From the IMG/VR virus record IMGVR_UViG_3300042691_037543, positions 1 to 64,000 of that record: a DNA stretch of 64,000 bases. One strand, 5' to 3'. The DNA is from a virus. Below, in pieces: positions 1 through 31,010 of this stretch. The notes under the pieces were generated by a model that was given only the letters and a program-made list of their open reading frames with translations, had not been told where the DNA came from and made no database searches. The position numbers and the translations under genes are program-made. Numbering within the stretch: position 1 is the first letter of the stretch; each line of letters starts with the position of its first letter.

Positions 1-20
1 GGGCGCTCTGAAACCCTGAA

Positions 21-132
21 CGAGCTAGTCATGTTTAAGAAAGGGCGACTGACTAGTGCGTACTGCGTTTCGATATCGTGCACGAGCTAGTCAGCGTTTC
101 GATATCGTGACTGACTAGTGCGTACTGCGTTT
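21..132. repeat. Interleaved direct repeats at left end
   Basis: Three short motifs each occur twice. A 24-base repeat beginning GACTGACTAGTGCG is at 47-70 and 109-132. GCGTTTCGATATCGTG is at 65-80 and 94-109. CGAGCTAGTCA is at 21-31 and 83-93. The motif TAGTCA in the last is the reverse complement of TGACTA in the first, so the block also contains inverted copies. No gene overlaps it. It may be an operator, promoter cluster or recombination site; the sequence does not decide which. Confidence 0.7.
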
Positions 133-417
133 GGGGTATGGGCTCGGCACGAAGGCTGCTCTGACAGGCTCCCTAGAGCTCTGAGCAGAAAACCCTCTGA
201 ACCCTCTTGCGTTCTCTTTAAGAATGGGTATTGTGTTGGGGCCTCGACGAACCGGCCCCCGCAAGGGGGCCCTGACGCGCCTAGGGCGCGAAACGCGAGG
301 CGCGACAGTCACAACATACTTCCCCCGCTGCGGCGGGGGCCTTTTCGCGTTCTAGGACTAGGCGCGAAACTGGGGAAGGGTGCGTCTTGTGTGCGCACCC
401 TGGAAAAGGATCGAACG
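133..417. other. Noncoding leader with hairpins
   Basis: No convincing gene is seen. The stretch holds a GGCCCCC/GGGGGCC stem-loop (254-271, loop GCAA), GC-rich inverted sequence around 271-303, and the terminator listed separately at 322-345. It ends in the ribosome-binding leader of the small membrane protein gene that starts at 418. Confidence 0.5.
322..345 (+). terminator. Rho-independent terminator
   Basis: A CCCCCGC/GCGGGGG-type stem with a very short loop is followed by CCTTTT. It lies before the first recognisable gene, so it would stop rightward transcripts entering from the left end. Confidence 0.55.
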
Positions 418-597
418 ATGAACGCCAAGGGTCTTATCAAGTCGGTTGCCCGCGTGTACGCCATCACGTCGCCGATCGCGGTCAGTTCGATGATCGTCGG
501 GTTTGGCGTAGGGTTCGTCGCGGGTACCCTCGCGAACCCTACGCACGGGTTCACCCGCGCCAACCCCTTCGCGAAGGGGGCCGGCGCCGCCAAGTAG
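418..597 (+). CDS. Small membrane protein, unknown function
   Basis: This is a 59-residue protein. Residues about 15-39 form one hydrophobic segment rich in Gly, Ala and Val (ITSPIAVSSMIVGFGVGFVA), and the tail is short and basic, so a single-pass inner-membrane protein is likely. The start is chosen because TGGAAAAGGATCG sits at the usual distance before ATG 418; the longer upstream reading frame has no such signal and crosses the terminator. It is the first gene of the left-end block. A holin-like or superinfection role is possible but nothing in the sequence shows it. Confidence 0.65.
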   Translation: MNAKGLIKSVARVYAITSPIAVSSMIVGFGVGFVAGTLANPTHGFTRANPFAKGAGAAK

Positions 598-781: not shown

Positions 782-797
782 TGTTTCACGTGAAACA
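782..797. other. parS: parS site 1 (canonical ParB-binding palindrome)
   Basis: The 16-mer TGTTTCACGTGAAACA matches the bacterial chromosomal parS consensus TGTTNCACGTGAAACA exactly and is a perfect palindrome, extended by C/G to 781-798. It lies in a noncoding gap, which argues against chance coding composition. Known role of the family: ParB loads here as a CTP-dependent clamp and spreads. Confidence 0.85.
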
Positions 798-915
798 GAC
801 TCCCGCGGCAAGAGGGTATGCCCAGGATGCAAGGTACCCGCGTGCGTCGCCTCTGCCAATACCCCCACCGGGCCCATTGAACCCGGTGGGGTCGATACCG
901 CGATGCCTCGCAGTA

Positions 916-955
916 CCTACCGCCGTGTTTCACGTGAAACAGCTACGGCGGTAGG
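916..955. other. parS: parS site 2 inside a 40-base palindrome
   Basis: A second identical TGTTTCACGTGAAACA occupies 926-941. It is framed by ten-base inverted arms, CCTACCGCCG (916-925) and CGGCGGTAGG (946-955), so the whole segment can form a cruciform centred on the ParB site. It is 144 bases from site 1. Paired, closely spaced parS sites are typical of centromere regions. Confidence 0.85.
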
Positions 956-1027: not shown

Positions 1028-1933
1028 ATGGCCAAGTCCAACCGCCGCGCCCCCCGTACCACCATCCTTGCCACCATCGCGGATAGCGACACCGCCCCGG
1101 CCGACGAGGCCACCGTGCTCGACACCGCCCACGAGATTGCCGCGGACGCCGCGCACGAGCTCGCGGCCGACACCGCCGCCGAGTACACCGACACCGCGCC
1201 CGCGGTCACCGACCCCCACGGCGCGGCCGTGGCCTTTCTGGCCGCGTTCGACCCGGCGCGGTTGCCGCCGGGTATGCACGCGAAGTTCCTGTCCAGAGGG
1301 AACGTGACCCGTATGGGTCGCGTGGCTCTCGCGGCGGCCGGGGTCGAGCTGGACGGCCCGACGCACCGGGCATACAACGAGCTCCGTTCGGGATTCTGGT
1401 CCCGAATGGGCGGAACCCTCCCGCGGCGCGAAGGGGGCACGCCCCGTGCGCCCCGCACGGCCGGCGGTGCCCGCGGCGGGAACCGCGCCGCGCGCATCGC
1501 GGTGTTCGCGGCGAAGATTGCCGCGGCGTCGAAGAAGCTGGCCGGCATCCTCGCCACGGTTCCCGCGGGCGCCGCGCCCTTGGGTGATGGGCCCGAGTCA
1601 CTGGCCGCGGTGGCCGACATCACGGCGGGTGCCTTCGCTACCGTGGCCGCCGCGGTTGCCGGCCGCGCAGGGACGAACCCGGCCGGGTTCGAGGCGCCGC
1701 GAGTCGCTACGCCGGCCGTGGCGCCGGTTCCCCTCACCGCGGGAGGGTTCGCGGTGCTTACGCCCGCCGGACGGCGGTCCGCCGTCGAAGGGGGGTTGAT
1801 TGACGAAAACGACGCAGGCGAAAAGCTCACCATCCTGGCGTTGCCGGATGGTGGCAAGGTAGCCACCGTTCGCACGGCGAGCGGTGACCGCACTCGCATC
1901 GCGACGCGGTTTCTCGTCGGTGTGGCTGTGTAG
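1028..1933 (+). CDS. Ala-rich protein of unknown function
   Basis: This 301-residue protein is dominated by Ala, Thr, Asp and Gly. An acidic Ala/Thr-rich N-terminal third (about 15-70) gives way to a middle with MHAKFLSRGNVTRMG, then a basic Arg/Gly linker (about 125-160), an Ala-rich helical stretch (160-215) and a C-terminal part with alternating strands (DGGKVATVRTASGDRTRIAT). I recognise no family. GAAAGGAATTG lies nine bases before ATG 1028. It is the gene directly downstream of the parS sites, so a DNA-organising role is conceivable but unproven. Confidence 0.6.
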   Translation: MAKSNRRAPRTTILATIADSDTAPADEATVLDTAHEIAADAAHELAADTAAEYTDTAPAVTDPHGAAVAFLAAFDPARLPPGMHAKFLSRGNVTRMGRVALAAAGVELDGPTHRAYNELRSGFWSRMGGTLPRREGGTPRAPRTAGGARGGNRAARIAVFAAKIAAASKKLAGILATVPAGAAPLGDGPESLAAVADITAGAFATVAAAVAGRAGTNPAGFEAPRVATPAVAPVPLTAGGFAVLTPAGRRSAVEGGLIDENDAGEKLTILALPDGGKVATVRTASGDRTRIATRFLVGVAV

Positions 1934-5560: not shown

Positions 5561-6889
5561 ATGGTCTGGAATGCGAAAAGCCCCAAGAACCTCGGGGCGA
5601 AGGAAAAGCTGACCGCAGCCAAGATCACGGTAGTTCACAAACTACCGTATCTGGCCCAGGCGGTCAGCGCACTCGTACTGCGCGAAGTGCCGCGCAGTAC
5701 GCTGAACACGATGGCCGTGTCTCCCAACGGAGTGCTCCGTTGGGATGCGGCCGATATTGACGAACTGACCGTCGAACAGACGGCAGCCTCGCTCGTTCAC
5801 GAGGTGTTTCACCTCTTGAACGAGCACCATCCCCGACGCCATGCGTCGGGGATTCTCGACAGCGACGCGGCGTTGTGGAACGTCGCGGCGGACTGCGAGA
5901 TCAACGACAATCTCGCGGCTACGGGGATCGACATGTTCAGCATGGTGACCCCGACGAGCATGGGTCAGCCCGATGGGTTGACCGCAGAAATGTACTACGC
6001 CGCTCTCAAAAAGAGCGGCCAGGGCACGCCGCAGCCCAAGCAAGGCGGCCAGAGCCAGGGCCAAGGCCAGAGTCAGCCGAAAGCCGGCAACGCCCCCAAC
6101 AAGTGCGGCGGCAAGTGCGGCAGCGGCAAGTGCGGGGGTGGGGCCGGTGGTGAGCCGGCCGACGGCGAAGCCGGCGACAAGCCGGGCAGTGGTAGCGGCG
6201 CCGAGGGGCGTTCTGCGGGCGACATGAAAGCCGTGGCCGTCGCCACGGCAGCCGCAATGCAGGAAGCCGCGGCCAAACAGAAGGGGAGCGTACCCGGCGG
6301 ATGGGCGCGCTGGGCGGGCGACATGCTCGCGCCCCCCAAAGTGCGATGGCAAGACAAGCTTCGCGCGAAGGTGCGCAGCGCGGTCAACCATGCGGCCGGC
6401 ATGGTTGATAAGACCTACAAACGTCCAAACCGCCGACAGGCGGGGCTCGGCTACGGGGCCGGCGCCCCCGTTCTCGCGGGCTGGCACGCGCCACAGCCCC
6501 GCGTGATGGTCGCACTGGACACGTCCGGGTCGATGGGCTCGGGCGACTTCGAGCTCGCCATGAACGAGCTCGAAGGCATCCTCAAGGCGATGCCTGGGCG
6601 CGTCGTAGACTTCGTGGCGTGCGACGCCCAGGTGCACGCTGCGGTGCCCGTTCGCTCGTGGCGTGAGGCGAAAGCCTCGCTCCGCGGCGGCGGGGGTACA
6701 TCCTTCGAGCCCGTGATGGAACACATCACGGGGCTACCGGCCGCAAAGCGGCCGCACGTTCTCGTCGTAGCCACCGATGGCTACGGCGACGACCCCCCGA
6801 TCCCCCGCGACGTGCGGGTGATCTGGCTCGTCACGAGAGGCAACTACTGCTCTGCGAAGAGCGGAGAGCATGTCTACCTCGACGGGTGA
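5561..6889 (+). CDS. VWA-domain protein with metallopeptidase-like N-terminus
   Basis: This 442-residue partner of the MoxR-like ATPase has HEVFH (80-84) with downstream NVAADCEIND in the N-terminal domain, resembling the putative metallopeptidase domain of DUF2201-type proteins. Residues 150-220 form a low-complexity Gln/Gly/Lys linker containing a KCGGKCGSGKCGGG cysteine cluster. The C-terminal VWA domain has the MIDAS signature DTSGSMG (320-326) and a later ATDGYGD. GGGAAAGGAATCGA before ATG 5561 sets the start; frames reaching further upstream overlap the ATPase gene. Cellular role unknown; the pair probably forms one chaperone-like complex. Confidence 0.8.
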   Translation: MVWNAKSPKNLGAKEKLTAAKITVVHKLPYLAQAVSALVLREVPRSTLNTMAVSPNGVLRWDAADIDELTVEQTAASLVHEVFHLLNEHHPRRHASGILDSDAALWNVAADCEINDNLAATGIDMFSMVTPTSMGQPDGLTAEMYYAALKKSGQGTPQPKQGGQSQGQGQSQPKAGNAPNKCGGKCGSGKCGGGAGGEPADGEAGDKPGSGSGAEGRSAGDMKAVAVATAAAMQEAAAKQKGSVPGGWARWAGDMLAPPKVRWQDKLRAKVRSAVNHAAGMVDKTYKRPNRRQAGLGYGAGAPVLAGWHAPQPRVMVALDTSGSMGSGDFELAMNELEGILKAMPGRVVDFVACDAQVHAAVPVRSWREAKASLRGGGGTSFEPVMEHITGLPAAKRPHVLVVATDGYGDDPPIPRDVRVIWLVTRGNYCSAKSGEHVYLDG

Positions 6890-7373: not shown

Positions 7374-8243
7374 ATGGAAAAGCTGACGATCGTAGACGGT
7401 GGGGCGACCACGGGCGTTGTGACCTACTGGCAGCTGGCGGGGCGCACGGAGCGCACACGCCTGGAAGCGGCCTGGATGAAGGCCGGCCTGGACATGGCGG
7501 CGCTGCCGCCCGTCACTACGCCCCGCACGGCGCTCCAACGCGCGCTCGCAGAGTTTGCGGACAAAGATACGCTGGTCCGGCCGTCCGAGGATCCACACAC
7601 CTTCGCGGTGCTCAAGCGGGAGAAGGACTCCCGAGGAAAGCCCGTCTTCGTCACGCAGTGGGAGGCGCGGCTGGCGTCTCCCGACACCGACGACCCCGTC
7701 TGCGTGCTCCCCGACGGGGCGGATGTCTCCGAGGAAACCGCGGAGACGGTCGTGCTCGCGTTCCGCCGCGAGCTGCGCACGATCCACCACCACGACATCT
7801 CGTCGTGGCTGGTGGAGTGGGCTCGCCGCTGCCACGCCGTTTCGCTCCGAGACTCGGGCGGCTTCTACTACATCCCCAACACGCACGCGGCGACATGGCG
7901 TGCTGTCGGCGACGCGCTGGGCAGCGCATCGCGATCGAAGGTCTACGAGATCGCTGCGATGGCTGGCGACAAGGCGGCGGAAGCCGTACTCGACGCGCTG
8001 ACGCGCGAAGTACGCACCGTCGTCGAGGGCATCGACGAGAAGCTGGGCGACGTAGGCGTCCGCGCCCTCAAGGGTCGCGAGCGAGAGCTCGCAGCCTACG
8101 AGGCCAAGGTTGCCTCGTTCGAGTCGGCCCTCGGGGTGAAGCTCGATGCGCTCCGCGGGCAGCTCACCGAGCTCGGTGGCCGTGTGGCTGTGGCGGTGAT
8201 GGCCGCCGAAGCCAACACCGGGTTCAGCGGCCTGGGTCTGTAG
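7374..8243 (+). CDS. Hypothetical protein with C-terminal coiled coil
   Basis: This 289-residue protein begins at ATG 7374, preceded by AAAGAGGAATCAC. The N-terminal 200 residues are mixed alpha/beta with conserved-looking aromatic and His patches (RTIHHHDISSWLVEW and GGFYYIPNTHAATW). The last 80 are helical with charged heptads (VRALKGRERELAAYEAKV), likely a coiled coil. It resembles large phage proteins of unknown function found beside MoxR/VWA pairs, but I cannot name a family with confidence. A clear terminator follows. Confidence 0.65.
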   Translation: MEKLTIVDGGATTGVVTYWQLAGRTERTRLEAAWMKAGLDMAALPPVTTPRTALQRALAEFADKDTLVRPSEDPHTFAVLKREKDSRGKPVFVTQWEARLASPDTDDPVCVLPDGADVSEETAETVVLAFRRELRTIHHHDISSWLVEWARRCHAVSLRDSGGFYYIPNTHAATWRAVGDALGSASRSKVYEIAAMAGDKAAEAVLDALTREVRTVVEGIDEKLGDVGVRALKGRERELAAYEAKVASFESALGVKLDALRGQLTELGGRVAVAVMAAEANTGFSGLGL

Positions 8244-9802: not shown

Positions 9803-10327
9803 GTGAACCAAACAATCGTGGACGTGCTCAACGAAGCCGCACGACGGTACAACCGCGTGTGGTGGGCAAACGCAATGGAGCTCACCCAGGCCGCGTGGCC
9901 CGACGTGCTCGTGGCCAGCCGTCGGTTCGACCCGGCTCGCGGCGACTACCGCGGTCTGCTGTACCACGTCGCCGTGCGGGCAATGGCGCGGTACCTGCGC
10001 TCGATGAGCGCCCCGGTGAGCGGGGACGTGTGGCGCAAGGGGAGGCTCGACGGGATTCTTAGAGAACCCGTCGAAGACGATTCTTTAACACTTGACGCCG
10101 CGCCCGAGCGGGTCGAATGTGTCGCGCGGGTTCGCGCCCGCGTCGAGGAAGTCCTCGGAGAAGAAGCGCCGTTCGCAGTGCGTTTGCTAACGCGCGAGAG
10201 CACGGCACAAGAGATTGCCGACGAGGCGGGTGTATCCACCAGTCTCGTATACAAGTGGACGATGGTGTGGCGTCGTGTTCTCAAGCACGACGCCGAGCTC
10301 CGTCTGCTGTGGGAGGAGTCCGACTGA
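9803..10327 (+). CDS. Sigma-70-like transcription factor (ECF type)
   Basis: This 174-residue protein has the shape of a short sigma factor. The region-2-like segment has FDPARGDYRGLLYHVAVRAM near residues 42-61, matching the helix of ECF sigma factors that contacts core polymerase and the -10 element. The C-terminal region-4-like HTH (TAQEIADEAGVSTSLVYKW) lies near residues 134-152. Start is GTG 9803. Its stop overlaps the ParB-domain gene by one base. It probably directs or modulates host RNA polymerase at phage promoters; DNA specificity is unknown. Confidence 0.65.
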   Translation: MNQTIVDVLNEAARRYNRVWWANAMELTQAAWPDVLVASRRFDPARGDYRGLLYHVAVRAMARYLRSMSAPVSGDVWRKGRLDGILREPVEDDSLTLDAAPERVECVARVRARVEEVLGEEAPFAVRLLTRESTAQEIADEAGVSTSLVYKWTMVWRRVLKHDAELRLLWEESD

Positions 10328-10953
10328 TGGACATGGAACTCAAGACGATTACGGCTGCCGAGCTCCGCAGGCAGCCGGTGAACCCGAACGAGATGTCGAG
10401 CGACGAGCTCGTCATGCTCCAGAAGTCGATCAAGCGCTTCGGCATGATCGACCCTGTCATCGTGCAGCCCAACGAAGACGGGCTGACGTATGACATTCTC
10501 GACGGGCACCACCGACTCGAAGCCGCCATCGCGAACGGCATCGTCGGGATTCCGTGTGTCGTCGTGGGCGGGTACATGCCCGACGAGATCAACGCGCTTC
10601 AACTCGCGTTGAACAAGAACCGCGGGCACATCCGACTCGACACTGCGGAGACGATCCTCCGCGAGCTGGCGAGTATGGGGTGGGAGCGCACGGAGCTCGC
10701 GGTGACGGGGTTCAGCGACGACGAGCTCTCGCGCCTGCTCGATGACGCCGTCGAGCAGACTGCGAAGGCGGCGAAGGCGGTGTCGGTCGAAGCTCCTGCG
10801 GCCGAAGACAGACCCTTCACCCTGGAGCTCAAGTTCCACACACAAGAGCAGCTCCGCGCGGTGCGCAAGGCGCTCAAGCGGTCGAGCGGAGAGCTCAAGG
10901 ACGAAAGCCTCGGCATGTTGAACATGCTCGGGCTTCTGGAGGATGGACGATGA
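10327..10953 (+). CDS. ParB/Srx N-domain protein
   Basis: This 208-residue protein has an N-terminal ParB-type domain: PVNPNEMSSDELVMLQKSIK, then FGMIDPVIVQ, and the hallmark DGHHRLEAA at about 58-66, which corresponds to the CTP-binding/nuclease-like fold. No central HTH of a chromosomal ParB is evident; the C-terminal 70 residues are different and charged. Such short ParB-domain proteins in phages act in DNA modification, nucleolytic processing or regulation rather than partition. It overlaps the sigma-like gene by one base and the HTH gene by four. Confidence 0.75.
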   Translation: MDMELKTITAAELRRQPVNPNEMSSDELVMLQKSIKRFGMIDPVIVQPNEDGLTYDILDGHHRLEAAIANGIVGIPCVVVGGYMPDEINALQLALNKNRGHIRLDTAETILRELASMGWERTELAVTGFSDDELSRLLDDAVEQTAKAAKAVSVEAPAAEDRPFTLELKFHTQEQLRAVRKALKRSSGELKDESLGMLNMLGLLEDGR

Positions 10954-11258
10954 CGACGGAAGTGGTGAAGACGCGGCACGCCCGCAAGTACAAGCGGCGC
11001 ACCTCGAAGGCCGACGACGCGTGGCTCTTGCGTGGGTACATCAACCCGTCGCGGGTGAGCGAGCTCCTCGGCCTGACGGCCCCGACGGTCTACCGCTGGG
11101 GGGCGCTCGGGTATGTGAAGGTCGTCGAAGACGGGCGACGCCGCTTCTTCGACGTGGCATCGCTGCGTGCATATCTGGCGGACGAGAGCCAGACCGCACT
11201 GATCGACGCCCACATCCGTGAACGCAAGGCCCAGCTCCTCGACGAGCTGGACACCTAG
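10950..11258 (+). CDS. MerR/excisionase-type HTH protein
   Basis: This 102-residue basic protein has a winged HTH. INPSRVSELLGLTAPTVYRW (about 31-50) is the helix-turn-helix, and VKVVEDGRRRFFDVASLRAY (55-74) is the wing and following helix typical of MerR/Xis folds. It is probably a transcriptional regulator, since no integrase is nearby to make it an excisionase. It has ATGA overlap with the ParB-domain gene and lies two bases before the helicase GTG. Confidence 0.7.
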   Translation: MTTEVVKTRHARKYKRRTSKADDAWLLRGYINPSRVSELLGLTAPTVYRWGALGYVKVVEDGRRRFFDVASLRAYLADESQTALIDAHIRERKAQLLDELDT

Positions 11259-11259
11259 C

Positions 11260-12705
11260 GTGTGGATCGAGGTGGACAACGTCGTCGCGCGGGTCAGCAA
11301 GATCAGCGACGACGAGGCGCACTGGCTGTACAACTTCCTCGTACTGCCAGTGAACGGCTTTCGTGCGCGGTACCTGGGCGGCCAGCAAGGCGAGCCCTTG
11401 TACAACGTGCGCGCGCAGTGCTTCCCGTCAGGGTTGCTCGGCGTGGTCATGCGCGGCGCGCGCGCCGAGAGCATCGAGGTGAACGTGCGCGACAAGCGCA
11501 AGCCGCCTGGGAAGCACGACCACAAGGCGGACCTGTCGTGGCTGCGCGACTACCAACATGAAGCCGTCGAGCGGTGCTTCGTCAAGCACCGCGGCATCAT
11601 CAAGGTAGGGACGGGCGGCGGCAAGACGGAGATCATCGCAGCGCTCGCAGCGCTCTACCCCGTCGAGTGGGATTTTCTCGTGCACCGCGCGAGCCTTCTC
11701 GACGAGATCGCCACGCGCATCGAGCGCCGTATCGGTGAGCCGGTAGGCCGCTTTGGTGACGGCCGGCGGACCTTCGAGCGCGTGAACGTCGTGATGTTTC
11801 AGTCGCTCCACAAGGCGCTCTGTCAGAAAGACAGCCGCGCCTTGGCGCACGTCAAGAGCGTACGCGGCATGGGCATCGACGAAGTGCACGTCGCCGCGAG
11901 CAAGACGTTCTTGCAGACCGCGCAGGCGTACAGCGGGGCGTACTACCGCTTCGGGTTCAGCGGCACGCCGCTCGACCGCAGCGATGAGCGCAACCTCGCA
12001 GTGATCGGCGCGACGGGCGACGTGATTTACCGCCTCGACTCCGCGCAGCTTGTCGAGCACGGCGCCATCGCCCGGCCGACCATTCACCTTGTGCGTATCC
12101 CGGTGCCGCGCATCGGCGGCTACAAGGCGATGAACATGATGCAGTTCTCGCGGCAGTGGGCGCAGTCGTACGACGCGGTCATGGCGTCGCAAGAACGGAT
12201 GAAGGTGCTCGTCAGCACGGTGCAGCAGGCGCCCAAGCCGTGCCTGACTTTCGTGAGGAGCATCGACCACGGGCGTGAGGTAGTGCGCGCGCTACGCAAG
12301 GCGGGGGTCGCGGCAGACTTCGTCTTCGGACAGCGCGACACGCACGCACGAGCCAGCGCGGTCAAGGCGCTCGTCAACGGCGACCTCGATGTGCTGGTCG
12401 CGAACATCGTGTTTCAAGAGGGCGTGGACATCCCGTCGCTCCAGTCCCTCGTCATGGCCGGTGCGAACAAGAGCACCATCGGCACCCTCCAGTCGCTCGG
12501 GCGCGCGCTGCGCCGAACCGACTCCAACAACGTAGTCGTGAAGGATGAAGTGCCGGTTTACGACATCGCGGACACGCACTGCGGGTGCAAGCGCACCGAG
12601 GGCGGGTACACGATGTACGACCACAACACTTGCAAGTGGTTCGACCAGCACACGTCTGCGCGTGTGAAGGACTACCGCAAGGCCGGGCATACTGTGAAGG
12701 AGTGA
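11260..12705 (+). CDS. Superfamily 2 DNA/RNA helicase
   Basis: This 481-residue helicase has motif I GTGGGKT (117-123), motif II DEVH (207-210) and motif III FSGTP (233-237). The second RecA-like domain has GVDIPSLQSLVMAGANKSTI and a motif VI QSLGRALRR. An N-terminal domain of about 90 residues precedes the first RecA fold. The DEVH box and layout resemble UvsW/XPB-like helicases that remodel branched DNA. GTG 11260 is preferred because it follows the previous stop at once; an ATG at 11218 lies within the previous gene. Likely roles are fork reversal, recombination or origin processing. Confidence 0.85.
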   Translation: MWIEVDNVVARVSKISDDEAHWLYNFLVLPVNGFRARYLGGQQGEPLYNVRAQCFPSGLLGVVMRGARAESIEVNVRDKRKPPGKHDHKADLSWLRDYQHEAVERCFVKHRGIIKVGTGGGKTEIIAALAALYPVEWDFLVHRASLLDEIATRIERRIGEPVGRFGDGRRTFERVNVVMFQSLHKALCQKDSRALAHVKSVRGMGIDEVHVAASKTFLQTAQAYSGAYYRFGFSGTPLDRSDERNLAVIGATGDVIYRLDSAQLVEHGAIARPTIHLVRIPVPRIGGYKAMNMMQFSRQWAQSYDAVMASQERMKVLVSTVQQAPKPCLTFVRSIDHGREVVRALRKAGVAADFVFGQRDTHARASAVKALVNGDLDVLVANIVFQEGVDIPSLQSLVMAGANKSTIGTLQSLGRALRRTDSNNVVVKDEVPVYDIADTHCGCKRTEGGYTMYDHNTCKWFDQHTSARVKDYRKAGHTVKE

Positions 12706-18977: not shown

Positions 18978-19531
18978 CATACGCCGGCTACGGGGTGTGG
19001 CCGTTCAACCGCCCCGACCGCGAACCGATCGCCGTGTTTCACGGCGACAACGCCCAGGAGCTCGCACGGAACTACGCCAGCCTCGTCGGTGGGGCGCTGG
19101 TGAGCCCCGTGACCTGCATCACGTCGAACCGTAGTGACGACGTGTTGCGGAGCGTCTCCAACTACGAAGAAGTCATCGCGACCTTGGAGCGCAAGGTCGA
19201 AGACGCGGAGCACAGCCTGGAGCTAGAGCGCGCAGACCGCGAAGACACGCGTAGGCAGAATCTAGCGGCGCAGGTCACCTACACCAGACAAATTGCGGCG
19301 CTCTTGCGCGCGGTCAACGCTGTCCCTTCGCAGGGATTCTCGAACGGCCACATCGTAGACAGCGTGGCCGAGCGCACGTTCTACGACGAGAAGTACGTTC
19401 ACGAGCTGGAGGTCGCCCTGGGGCTGGAGGGATTCCCCGAAGTCGCCATCGAGCGTCTCCGCAGACGATGCATCGTCGCGGGAGGCAACTACGCAATTCG
19501 TCCGCACGATAGAAAGGTCGCGACACCGTGA
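18968..19531 (+). CDS. Coiled-coil protein, unknown
   Basis: This 187-residue protein starts at GTG 18968, overlapping the kinase gene by ten bases. After a short N-terminal domain (to about 60), residues about 62-105 are strongly heptad-like and acidic (EEVIATLERKVEDAEHSLEL), a probable coiled coil. The C-terminal part is helical. It overlaps the sigma-like gene that follows. No family was recognised. Confidence 0.6.
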   Translation: MGVAYAGYGVWPFNRPDREPIAVFHGDNAQELARNYASLVGGALVSPVTCITSNRSDDVLRSVSNYEEVIATLERKVEDAEHSLELERADREDTRRQNLAAQVTYTRQIAALLRAVNAVPSQGFSNGHIVDSVAERTFYDEKYVHELEVALGLEGFPEVAIERLRRRCIVAGGNYAIRPHDRKVATP

Positions 19532-20355
19532 GCAACAAGCTGCTGCCCCCGGAAAACCTGCTGCGCAACCGGCCGAAGAAGGGTACGACGAACATCAAGC
19601 GCATCGGTAAGCAGCGGTTGCGCCACGAGATGAACCTCGCGAACCTGCGCTTGATCGGCGTAGACAGGGCGCGCCCCAAGACGCGCGCCGACTGTCTGCA
19701 AGGGCCGAACGCGCAGCGCCCGTGCCCGTTCGTGTCGTGCAAGCACCACCTGTACCTCGACGTGAATCAGCGCGTGGGCTCCATCAAGCTGAATTTCAGC
19801 GACCTCGACGTAGGGATGCTGTGGGAGACATGCTCGCTCGACGTGGCCGACCGCAACGGCGCGTCGCTCGACGAGATCGCGAAGTACATGAACCTCGGGC
19901 GTGAGCGCGTCCGTCAGATCGAAGAGGCGGCGCTCGCGAAGCTGAAAGATGGTGTGGCCGCGTTGGGAATCAGCGCGAGCGATATCACGCACACGTTCAG
20001 CGCGTGGGATACCGCGACCTCGCCCGTCACCTCCGAGGTAGACGGCATCGACGACAGCGAATACAGGGCCATCTCGCGCCAAGTCATCCGAGACTCGGGC
20101 GACTTGCTCAAGGTGCCGGTGTTCATGCGCGGCGACATGGCGCTGCTGAGCAGTGAGAAGGGGCGCAAGTTCGTCTTGGCCCGTGCGACGAAGAAGCTCG
20201 ATCGGTACAAGCGGGGGCTGGCCACCGCGCAGGGGTATCTTGCGAAGTGCATCGCCAAGAACCGCAGCACGGTGATCGCGCAGCGCTCGATCCACCGATA
20301 CAAGCAGCTCATGGCCCTGACGGCGCGCCGGATCGAAGCGATCCAGAACTTGTAA
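19528..20355 (+). CDS. Sigma-70 region-4-like DNA-binding protein
   Basis: This 275-residue protein carries RPCPFVSCKHHLYLDVN (64-80), a Cys/His motif I associate with sigma-like HTH proteins of Myxococcota and related delta-lineage bacteria, then LDVADRNGASLDEIAKYMNL and RERVRQIEEAALAKL (about 104-139). That is a textbook sigma region 4 helix-turn-helix. It has no region 2, so it is not a complete sigma factor; it may be an anti-sigma, co-activator or appropriator of host polymerase. The C-terminal 120 residues are basic and helical. Start is GTG 19528 behind GAAAGG. It is also the best host clue in the window. Confidence 0.7.
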   Translation: MSNKLLPPENLLRNRPKKGTTNIKRIGKQRLRHEMNLANLRLIGVDRARPKTRADCLQGPNAQRPCPFVSCKHHLYLDVNQRVGSIKLNFSDLDVGMLWETCSLDVADRNGASLDEIAKYMNLGRERVRQIEEAALAKLKDGVAALGISASDITHTFSAWDTATSPVTSEVDGIDDSEYRAISRQVIRDSGDLLKVPVFMRGDMALLSSEKGRKFVLARATKKLDRYKRGLATAQGYLAKCIAKNRSTVIAQRSIHRYKQLMALTARRIEAIQNL

Positions 20356-28721: not shown

Positions 28722-30333
28722 CCTGAGCATCGAAGGGTTCTGCGGCATCGGCTCGCGCGCCAACGTGGCGTTCCCACAAACGGGCCTCGTGCTCGTGACG
28801 GGCCGCAACGGGTACGGCAAGAGTACGTTGATCGAATCCGTCTCCCACGCCGTGTGGGGCGAGGGTGTGTTTCGCACCGGGTCGCTGTGGGCGGACAAGG
28901 GCACCATCGAGCTGCACACACACGACGGCTCGATGGTGCACAGACAACGCGCGGGCTCGCGTACGTCGGGGCAGTTGTACCGGCACGGCAGTACGTCGCT
29001 GTTCGACACCGCTACGAAGATGAACGAGGCGGCAGCGACGGCGTTCGGGTCACACGACGCGTGGCGCACGACGCACATCATCGAGCCCAGCGACGCGGCG
29101 ATGTTCACGCGCGCAAGCGACACGGTGCGAAAGCACGTCTTGGAGGGGCTTCTCGGGCTGAGCGTCTACGACGACGCCCTGGTGAAGTCCCGCACGTTCC
29201 GCAAGGCAGCAGACCGGGTACGCGAAGACACGGCGAACAAGATCGCCGAGATTCGCGGTCGCCTGGAGACGCTCAACAACGTGTACAGCGCGTCCAAGTC
29301 GGCCCGCTCGAAAGAGGAGCTCACCGCGATCATCGACGACGCCACCGCGCGCATAGACGCCCTGCAACAGCGCATCACGGAGTGCGACGACAAGGTGGGC
29401 GATCTGCGGTCGTCGGCCCAAAACCTACGCAGCTCCGAAGCGGTGCTGGTTGCGAAGCTGCACAACATCCACCGCGTAGCCGTGCACGGCGACCGGGTGT
29501 GTCCCCTGTGCGGCAGCACCGTCGGTGACGACGTGGCCAAGGGGATCAATGATGCCGCGACTGCCGAAGAACACGAAGTGAAAGCCCAACTTGCGGAGCT
29601 GCGAGAGAAAGCCCACCTGTGCGAAGCCGAGTTGAGCACGCAGTTGCTCGTGCAGGGCGACACGCGCCGGGATCAGGTGGCCCAGCAAGGCCGGCAAGAC
29701 GCGGCGCGCCGCGAGCTCGACATCGTTCAGAAGGCCGAGGGCATTCGCGAGCGCATGGAGGCCGAGCAGGCACAGCTCGACGTGCTGAACGACAAGCTCG
29801 CGAACTCCATGACCGACGTAGACCTGTACGCGACCGCCGAGAAGATTCTCGGGGTGCGTGGTGTGCGCGCGCACATCCTCGACAACGCGGTCAACGCGCT
29901 CGGGCACTTCGCGGCGCAATGGATGTCGCAGCTCTCCGACAACGAGATGAGCGTCTCCGTGCAGTCCTACACGGAGAACACCCGCGGCGACGCCCGCAAC
30001 GCTATCTCCATCTCGCTGCTGCGCGGTGACCGCACGACGCCGTACGCCGCCTGCTCTCGCGGTGAGCAGCGCCGCATCGACATCGCCGTGACGCTCGCGC
30101 TGGCCGACATTCAGTCGTCCGCGACGGCGCACCCGACGGGCACGCTGTTCGTAGACGAGATCATGGACGGGCTCGACTACGCCGGGGCTCTCGCAACGCT
30201 GAGCTGTCTCGCGAAGATGGCAGCCAAGCGTTGCGTAGTGGTAATTACTCACAAGGCGAGCGTGCAGCTCGCCGCGAAGGCTGCGGCGCACTTCATGTTC
30301 GTGGCGCCGGGGGTTATCGAAAGGGCGAAGTAA
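28708..30333 (+). CDS. Rad50/SbcC/gp46-like ATPase
   Basis: This 541-residue SMC-type protein has Walker A TGRNGYGKST (31-40), coiled-coil arms and a zinc hook CPLC (265-268), a signature-like SRGEQRR near 450 and Walker B LFVDEIMDGLD near 480. The arms are short compared with bacterial SbcC and close to T4 gp46 in total length. It clamps DNA ends and controls the gp47-like nuclease. The end overlaps the ParB-domain gene by one base. Confidence 0.9.
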   Translation: MKISDLSIEGFCGIGSRANVAFPQTGLVLVTGRNGYGKSTLIESVSHAVWGEGVFRTGSLWADKGTIELHTHDGSMVHRQRAGSRTSGQLYRHGSTSLFDTATKMNEAAATAFGSHDAWRTTHIIEPSDAAMFTRASDTVRKHVLEGLLGLSVYDDALVKSRTFRKAADRVREDTANKIAEIRGRLETLNNVYSASKSARSKEELTAIIDDATARIDALQQRITECDDKVGDLRSSAQNLRSSEAVLVAKLHNIHRVAVHGDRVCPLCGSTVGDDVAKGINDAATAEEHEVKAQLAELREKAHLCEAELSTQLLVQGDTRRDQVAQQGRQDAARRELDIVQKAEGIRERMEAEQAQLDVLNDKLANSMTDVDLYATAEKILGVRGVRAHILDNAVNALGHFAAQWMSQLSDNEMSVSVQSYTENTRGDARNAISISLLRGDRTTPYAACSRGEQRRIDIAVTLALADIQSSATAHPTGTLFVDEIMDGLDYAGALATLSCLAKMAAKRCVVVITHKASVQLAAKAAAHFMFVAPGVIERAK

Positions 30334-31010
30334 TGAGCGACCGCGTGGAGTTTCAGAAGGTAGGCAACCTGACGGTCGGGCTCGTCCCGCTCAGCCGGCT
30401 GGTGCAGCGTCGGACGAACTACCGACAGATGAGCGACCGCGACTACGCGGCGCTCAAGACGGCGATCTCCACGTTCGGGTTCAGCACGGTCATCGCCGTG
30501 CGGCTCGCTGCCGACGGTGAGCACTACGAAGTCATCGACGGCCACCACCGCTGGCGCGCGGCGAAGGAGCTGGAGATGGACAGCATCCCGGCGGCCCTGG
30601 TCAACACCGACGACGACATGGCCGACGTAGCCATGCTCTCTTTCAACGTCTCGGGCGACGTGTTGCCCGACGTGCTGATGGAGATGCTCCGCGAGATGAG
30701 CTCGCGCGTCGCGTCCTCCGTGGTGGAGGCGCACGCGGGGTTCAGCGATGGGTTCATCGAGGAAGCGATCCGCGCCGCCGAGGGCGCCGTGTCGGCCGTC
30801 GCCCCGCCGAAGGAACCCAAGGCACGCGCGACTCCGAAGGAGCCCACCGTCGATCGCATCGAGCCGGTGCCGACCATCACCGTGCTGCTCACGCGGCAGA
30901 TGGCCCGAGCCATCGAGGCGATTCGCAAGGACCGCAGCTACGACTCGTCGATGAGCGACGCCGACGTGCTCACGGCTGTGATGCTCGATACGGCGATGGG
31001 CGATGCCTAA
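30333..31010 (+). CDS. Second ParB/Srx N-domain protein
   Basis: This 225-residue protein contains LVPLSRLVQRRTNYRQMSDR, LKTAISTFGFSTVIAVRL and DGHHRWRAAKELEMDSIPA (about 69-87), the ParB-type N-domain order. A Pro/Lys-rich linker (about 155-175) and a C-terminal helical segment follow. As in the 10327 gene, no ParB HTH is seen. It is coupled to the gp46-like gene and overlaps the nuclease gene, so a role in DNA-end handling or modification is more likely than partition. Confidence 0.75.
   Translation: MSDRVEFQKVGNLTVGLVPLSRLVQRRTNYRQMSDRDYAALKTAISTFGFSTVIAVRLAADGEHYEVIDGHHRWRAAKELEMDSIPAALVNTDDDMADVAMLSFNVSGDVLPDVLMEMLREMSSRVASSVVEAHAGFSDGFIEEAIRAAEGAVSAVAPPKEPKARATPKEPTVDRIEPVPTITVLLTRQMARAIEAIRKDRSYDSSMSDADVLTAVMLDTAMGDA

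Follow-up and report, generated by a model that had tools for sequence, protein, structure and literature searches.

Two exact chromosomal-type parS sites in a phage genome that encodes neither ParA nor a full ParB

The phage of IMG/VR record IMGVR_UViG_3300042691_037543 carries two exact copies of the bacterial chromosomal parS consensus in a noncoding region near its putative replication origin, and its 84,736-base record encodes neither ParA nor a full ParB. Positions 1 to 64,000 of the record, the whole stretch of DNA considered here, are referred to as the window; position numbers are those of the window unless the record is named. Judging by their sequence, the two sites are very probably bound by the chromosomal ParB of the host. 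It is rather probable that they are working parS sites which load host ParB and that this serves a positional use near the origin. Recruitment of host ParB is known for phage phi29, and phages of this kind seem to be far more widespread than has been recognised.

parS sites and their surroundings

The left end of the window holds the following features, of which only the two genes are assigned to a strand.

1-390, half of the putative replication-origin region (the other half is record bases 84333-84736)
391-597, plus strand, small predicted gene upstream of the parS sites, 68 aa, no family
598-1027, noncoding region of 430 bp with both parS sites, as delimited by codon-based gene calling
782-797, parS site 1, TGTTTCACGTGAAACA, the exact chromosomal consensus (PMC7022226, PMC7383237)
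863-891, strong hairpin between the parS sites, 10-bp stem and 9-nt loop, no function assigned
916-955, inverted repeat of 40 nt around parS site 2, with perfect 11-bp arms at 916-926 and 945-955
926-941, parS site 2, TGTTTCACGTGAAACA, an exact match
1028-1933, plus strand, first gene downstream of the parS sites, 301 aa, no Pfam or PHROG match

Both sites conform to the 16-bp palindrome TGTTNCACGTGAAACA of chromosomal-type parS (PMC7022226). The identical 16-mer is the consensus parS of a study in which 17 ParBs and 4 Noc proteins were specific in their preference for parS versus NBS, the site of Noc (PMC7383237). The two sites start 144 bases apart and have the 19-mer TGTTTCACGTGAAACAGCT in common in inverted orientation, and site 1 is enclosed by the 18-bp palindrome CTGTTTCACGTGAAACAG (781-798). 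Other open reading frames overlap the sites, and these were not picked by the codon-based gene calling. A sequence-only reading of this DNA had described two perfect sites of the chromosomal consensus, 144 bases apart in a noncoding gap, and the present coordinates and the published consensus bear it out. It had also put site 2 at the centre of a 40-base palindrome; the inverted repeat is real, but "at the centre" is only approximate, because the centre of the repeat lies 2 bp from that of the site.

The 64-kb window has no further parS match with up to 3 mismatches, and the record of 84,736 bases has none with up to 2. The base composition leads to an expectation of 2.5e-6 exact sites per record, and two were observed. 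Dinucleotide shuffles gave a mean of 0.11 matches with up to 3 mismatches, and two matches were reached in 1 of 100 shuffles. The two exact sites are not due to chance.

The noncoding region is far more foldable than its shuffles (z -7.65 as single-stranded DNA), and site 1 folds into a long imperfect hairpin. No T-run was seen 3' of the site 2 hairpin, an Rfam search gave no match, and the surroundings of the sites showed no sigma-70-type promoter. The hairpin context could reflect a role as RNA or single-stranded DNA instead of a role in ParB binding.

Partition genes, phage genome and relatives

The whole record was searched for the ParA family without a match at E<=10; all 14 control genomes gave matches in the same search. 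Pfam scans covering almost every predicted protein likewise showed no ParA, and none is present in the 20.7 kb beyond the window. Exactly two ParB_N proteins were found in the window, both with the N-terminal domain only and below the TIGR00180 cut-off.

10327-10953, plus strand, ParB_N-domain protein (PHROG 620), GHHR in place of GERR, without HTH and without ParA-binding motif
30333-31010, plus strand, second ParB_N-domain protein, GHHR in place of GERR, without HTH and without ParA-binding motif

The ParA-binding motif is defined as in PMC12704722. The matches of the two proteins are PHROG ParB-like and methyltransferase-associated families, and on its domain content the protein at 10327-10953 is not a partition ParB. 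The profile scans agree with the earlier observation that the window has two ParB_N proteins without the ParB HTH and no ParA. The remainder of the genome adds no ParA and no full ParB, so there is no ordinary partition cassette; a ParABS system of the phage's own elsewhere in the genome was considered and is ruled out for the whole record. Phage and plasmid ParABS cassettes have a ParA ATPase and a full ParB with a parS-binding HTH, and both are missing here. The genome corresponds to the orphan type of phi29, in which host-type parS is present and a phage ParA and full ParB are absent.

The ends of the record have 69 identical bases in common, so that it probably represents a whole circular genome of 84,667 bp; IMG/VR carries no such flag. 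The phage is also present in another record, as a second contig that is 99.99% identical over 12.4 kb. The repeats GAGCTAGTCA and CTAGTCACGTTT are confined to record bases 84333-84736 and window positions 1-130, occur nowhere else in the genome, and adjoin its most AT-rich 120-bp stretch (record position 84371). We infer that the noncoding stretch across the record join is the replication origin, about 1 kb from the parS sites. Gene products recognised in the genome are a DNA polymerase of family A, helicases (one of DnaB type), a RecA-like protein, an SPP1-type portal, a baseplate J protein and an endolysin-like protein. No integrase and no known repressor family turned up when nearly the whole proteome was scanned with Pfam, a method that novel repressors would escape. 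The gene for the terminase large subunit (record 80943-83603) has a Hint/intein domain inside it. A protein with sigma-70 region 4 is encoded at 19528-20355 and sigma-70 region 2 is found in a separate protein; the phage may have one split sigma-like factor or two.

The phage has no nucleotide match to known phages, and its tblastn matches for host assignment were remote. Naming a host from the genome scan was given up, as the scan returned only distant relatives of a MoxR-like ATPase, mostly on actinobacterial contigs, which is too weak. Exact parS is absent from all 28 relatives recognised through a shared ATPase or DNA polymerase (25-43% identity). The best match among them, TGTTTCACGTGAAAAG, has 2 mismatches and one perfect half; it is located at 12532-12547 of locus L147 (G055:31216-31231), between homologues of the genes at 5561-6889 and 7374-8243. 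The closest relative, G054, shows mostly 40-60% amino-acid identity over the virion genes and is a fragment without the region homologous to that of the parS sites. Conservation of parS within the phage's own clade was therefore set aside as a line of evidence, the 28 relatives being distant and the closest one lacking the region. The relatives are without parS, which means that the sites were not inherited from the ancestor of the clade. This absence would suit sites that arose by chance or came with functionless chromosomal DNA taken up passively. Such an origin is very improbable in view of the two exact inverted copies in noncoding DNA, where the expectation per record is in the order of one in several hundred thousand, and no recognisably chromosomal gene lies beside them.

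Orphan parS sites in other phages

The present phage is not an isolated case, since exact parS is found in at least 198 phage records. Searched with one version of the flanks, it was detected in 198 of 50,697 records, compared with 0 for a matched control palindrome, which was run for one flank version. The four flank versions gave 34, 198, 50 and 117 records out of 50,697, counts that were not summed because they overlap; a site needs 17 or more matching bases to be detected by such queries. The hosts of the carriers include Listeria, Gordonia, Arthrobacter, Rhodococcus, Ruegeria, Lactobacillus, Enterococcus and Vibrio; phages named for Escherichia, Salmonella or Klebsiella are not among the carrier genera listed. 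Named carriers are the Arthrobacter phages Joann and Atuin, Rhodococcus phage Finch, Ruegeria phages RpAliso and DSS3P8, Gordonia phage Woes (Woesvirus), Listeria phage P100 (Pecentumvirus), Lactobacillus phage Iacchus, Bacillus phage vB_BcoS-136, Butyrivibrio phage Arian, phi29-like phages of Enterococcus, Vibrio phage phi 3 and Korravirus phages. Most carriers have one to three sites each, mostly intergenic (this applies to Korravirus, Woesvirus, P100, RpAliso, phi 3, Finch and Atuin) and in a minority inside annotated genes. Neither ParA nor a full ParB is present in Joann, Finch, RpAliso, Atuin, the Enterococcus phage or phi29. The named carriers differ from the present phage in that their hosts are known, and they have no nucleotide match to it. 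The open-access literature searched contained neither a survey of parS sites in phages nor papers describing the parS of these carriers.

The viral contigs of IMG/VR, a collection that may include some bacterial DNA, contain exact parS in at least 120 stretches, versus 7 for a composition-matched palindrome, and for the TGTTCCACGTGAAACA variant, too, the matches listed are a lower bound. Of the 48 viral records that are largest among the parS carriers, 47 lack ParA and none has a full ParB. The one record with ParA (IMGVR_UViG_3300037518_000322, or G036/L090) has 24 parS-like sites; it is likely a chromosome origin region, possibly in a misclassified contig, and was left out of account as chromosome-like. 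With genes called by ourselves, 99 of the 146 sites fall entirely in noncoding DNA, which makes up 12.7% of positions. When one site is taken per protein-similarity cluster, 40 of 56 are noncoding and 8.0 are expected (p=6e-22). All second sites with one mismatch (16/16) differ at the symmetric positions 1, 5 or 8, and 20 shuffled palindromes gave a single such site in total. Published chromosomal parS consensus sequences differ from one another at positions such as 1 and 5 (PMC7022226).

The eight Korravirus genomes have their site between the polymerase and PurA-like genes. The flanks there have diverged (22% and 34% invariant), the 14-bp core GTTTCACGTGAAAC is unchanged and forms the longest invariant run of the alignment, coding DNA included, and the T..A of the outer base pair has become C..G, with both sides changing together. 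This is the pattern predicted for selection on a protein-binding dyad; the evidence for selection on parS comes from these other phages and would extend to the present one by analogy. Taken together, the surveys suggest that many unrelated phages use orphan host-type parS.

The two sites of Gordonia phage Woes (2081 and 2502) are the centres of perfect palindromes of 36 and 30 bp, whose arms differ between the sites; site 2 of the present phage is nearly so placed, and the arrangements resemble each other. A viral record with a GC content of 72% (L066) also has two palindrome-flanked sites resembling the arrangement of site 2, one of them with the same geometry of arm, parS, 4 nt and arm. Long palindromes around parS were rejected as a general rule, as they surround only about 3% of sites. 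In bajarodino virus 3 (PQ006097), an inovirus of 6.2 kb from rodent faeces, six exact parS are found (704, 740, 3041, 3583, 4380 and 5921), and its sister records have 10-12 parS places with both strands counted. Inoviruses are phages of a type that persists without killing the host, and the six sites therefore fit a role in inheritance.

These data also bear on the possibility that a phage protein reads the palindromes (for instance a ParB_N protein together with a small HTH protein), or that the hairpins act as a terminator or as a signal for replication or packaging, the likeness to parS being incidental. Both sites of the present phage lie in strong hairpins, and an HTH_17 protein (10950-11258) is encoded beside the ParB_N protein at 10327-10953. 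Yet phages unrelated in sequence to the present one have the exact 16-mer as well, and it varies at particular base positions instead of at any position that would preserve pairing. The rarity of long palindromes around parS, the missing T-run after the site 2 hairpin and the lack of an Rfam match also count against such a signal, which is considered improbable.

Possible uses of host ParB by the phage

The sequence-only reading had proposed recruitment of host ParB, and this stands as the best explanation, strengthened by the signs of selection on identical orphan sites in other phages. Its remark that no lytic phage strategy of this kind is well established needs to be corrected. The virulent phi29 (Salasmaviridae) has four near-consensus TGTTCCACGTGAAACA sites and no ParA or ParB, and its genome is directed into spores by Spo0J, the ParB of the host (Meijer et al. 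2005, cited in PMC9437464). The present phage resembles phi29 in having host-type parS without a ParA or ParB of its own. It differs in that phi29 is linear, 19 kb in size, has a terminal protein and infects a sporulating host, whereas here two perfect consensus sites are clustered near the putative origin. A further parallel is the mobile element SGI1, whose parS mimics bind the ParB of the helper IncC plasmid and stabilise SGI1 (PMC10954446). SGI1 also has two parS copies and uses the ParABS of another replicon; unlike the present phage, it is an integrative element and the system it exploits is that of a plasmid. The parABS cassettes of actinobacteriophages and of P1 type also place parS in phage genomes, but they come with their own ParA and ParB. 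The actinobacteriophage cassettes were reportedly described by Dedrick et al. in 2016.

ParB with CTP loads at parS, then spreads and engages ParA (PMC12704722). In the proposed mechanism, the chromosomal ParB of the host, a CTP-dependent clamp, would be loaded onto the phage genome at the two parS sites. The phage would thus exploit the ParABS of the host, because it encodes neither ParA nor a parS-binding ParB. ParB loaded about 1 kb from the putative origin would tie the phage genome to host ParA and possibly to SMC. The infecting or replicating genome could in this way be kept in place and inherited, especially in a slow or starved host in which the lytic cycle is delayed. We infer all three steps, namely the binding of ParB to this phage, the attachment to ParA and the benefit; binding could also be harmful or neutral to the phage. 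That segregation or positioning is the main role of ParB binding is given an even chance. Position and inheritance are preferred over silencing of early genes and over titration of ParB or SMC, and the data do not separate them.

Silencing would mean that host ParB spreads from the sites over the genes at 391-597 and 1028-1933 and the early operon, as a switch that responds to the state of the host. The sites stand at the start of the rightward block of early genes and 87 bp ahead of the gene at 1028-1933. The lytic cycle of phi29 is suspended through the host regulator Spo0A (PMC9437464), and in Pseudomonas aeruginosa ParB is reported to repress promoters adjoining parS3 and parS4 (PMC5521831). 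The lack of a detectable sigma-70-type promoter near the sites speaks against such control, and other phages have their sites between many different kinds of gene or, as in the 6.2-kb inovirus, scattered over the genome. Transcription control is regarded as unlikely.

Somewhat less credence is given to a decoy or to SMC loading. Here the phage copies would titrate ParB or SMC away from the host origin and disturb segregation of the host, or would load SMC on phage DNA. Replication of the phage would multiply the sites, and ParB loads SMC in several bacteria (PMC7022226, PMC10197239). However, the one to three sites of most phages are few next to the chromosomal 10 of Bacillus subtilis and about 20 of Streptomyces (PMC7022226).

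Beyond positioning and inheritance of the present genome, we lean slightly towards a broader interpretation. Unrelated phages, both lytic double-stranded DNA phages and filamentous ones, would have independently taken up the centromere sequence of their hosts in order to use host ParB, and the present phage would exemplify a general and mostly overlooked way of placing or carrying genomes in slow-growing hosts. Bacteria that lack chromosomal parABS, among them the Enterobacteriaceae (PMC7022226), should then have phages with no such sites. Arthrobacter phage Joann, Gordonia phage Woes and Bacillus phage phi29 offer test cases with cultured hosts. If this is true, targeting of the host ParABS would be common among phages instead of peculiar to phi29, and a single 16-bp site would provide a cheap route to carrier states and to inheritance without lysogeny.
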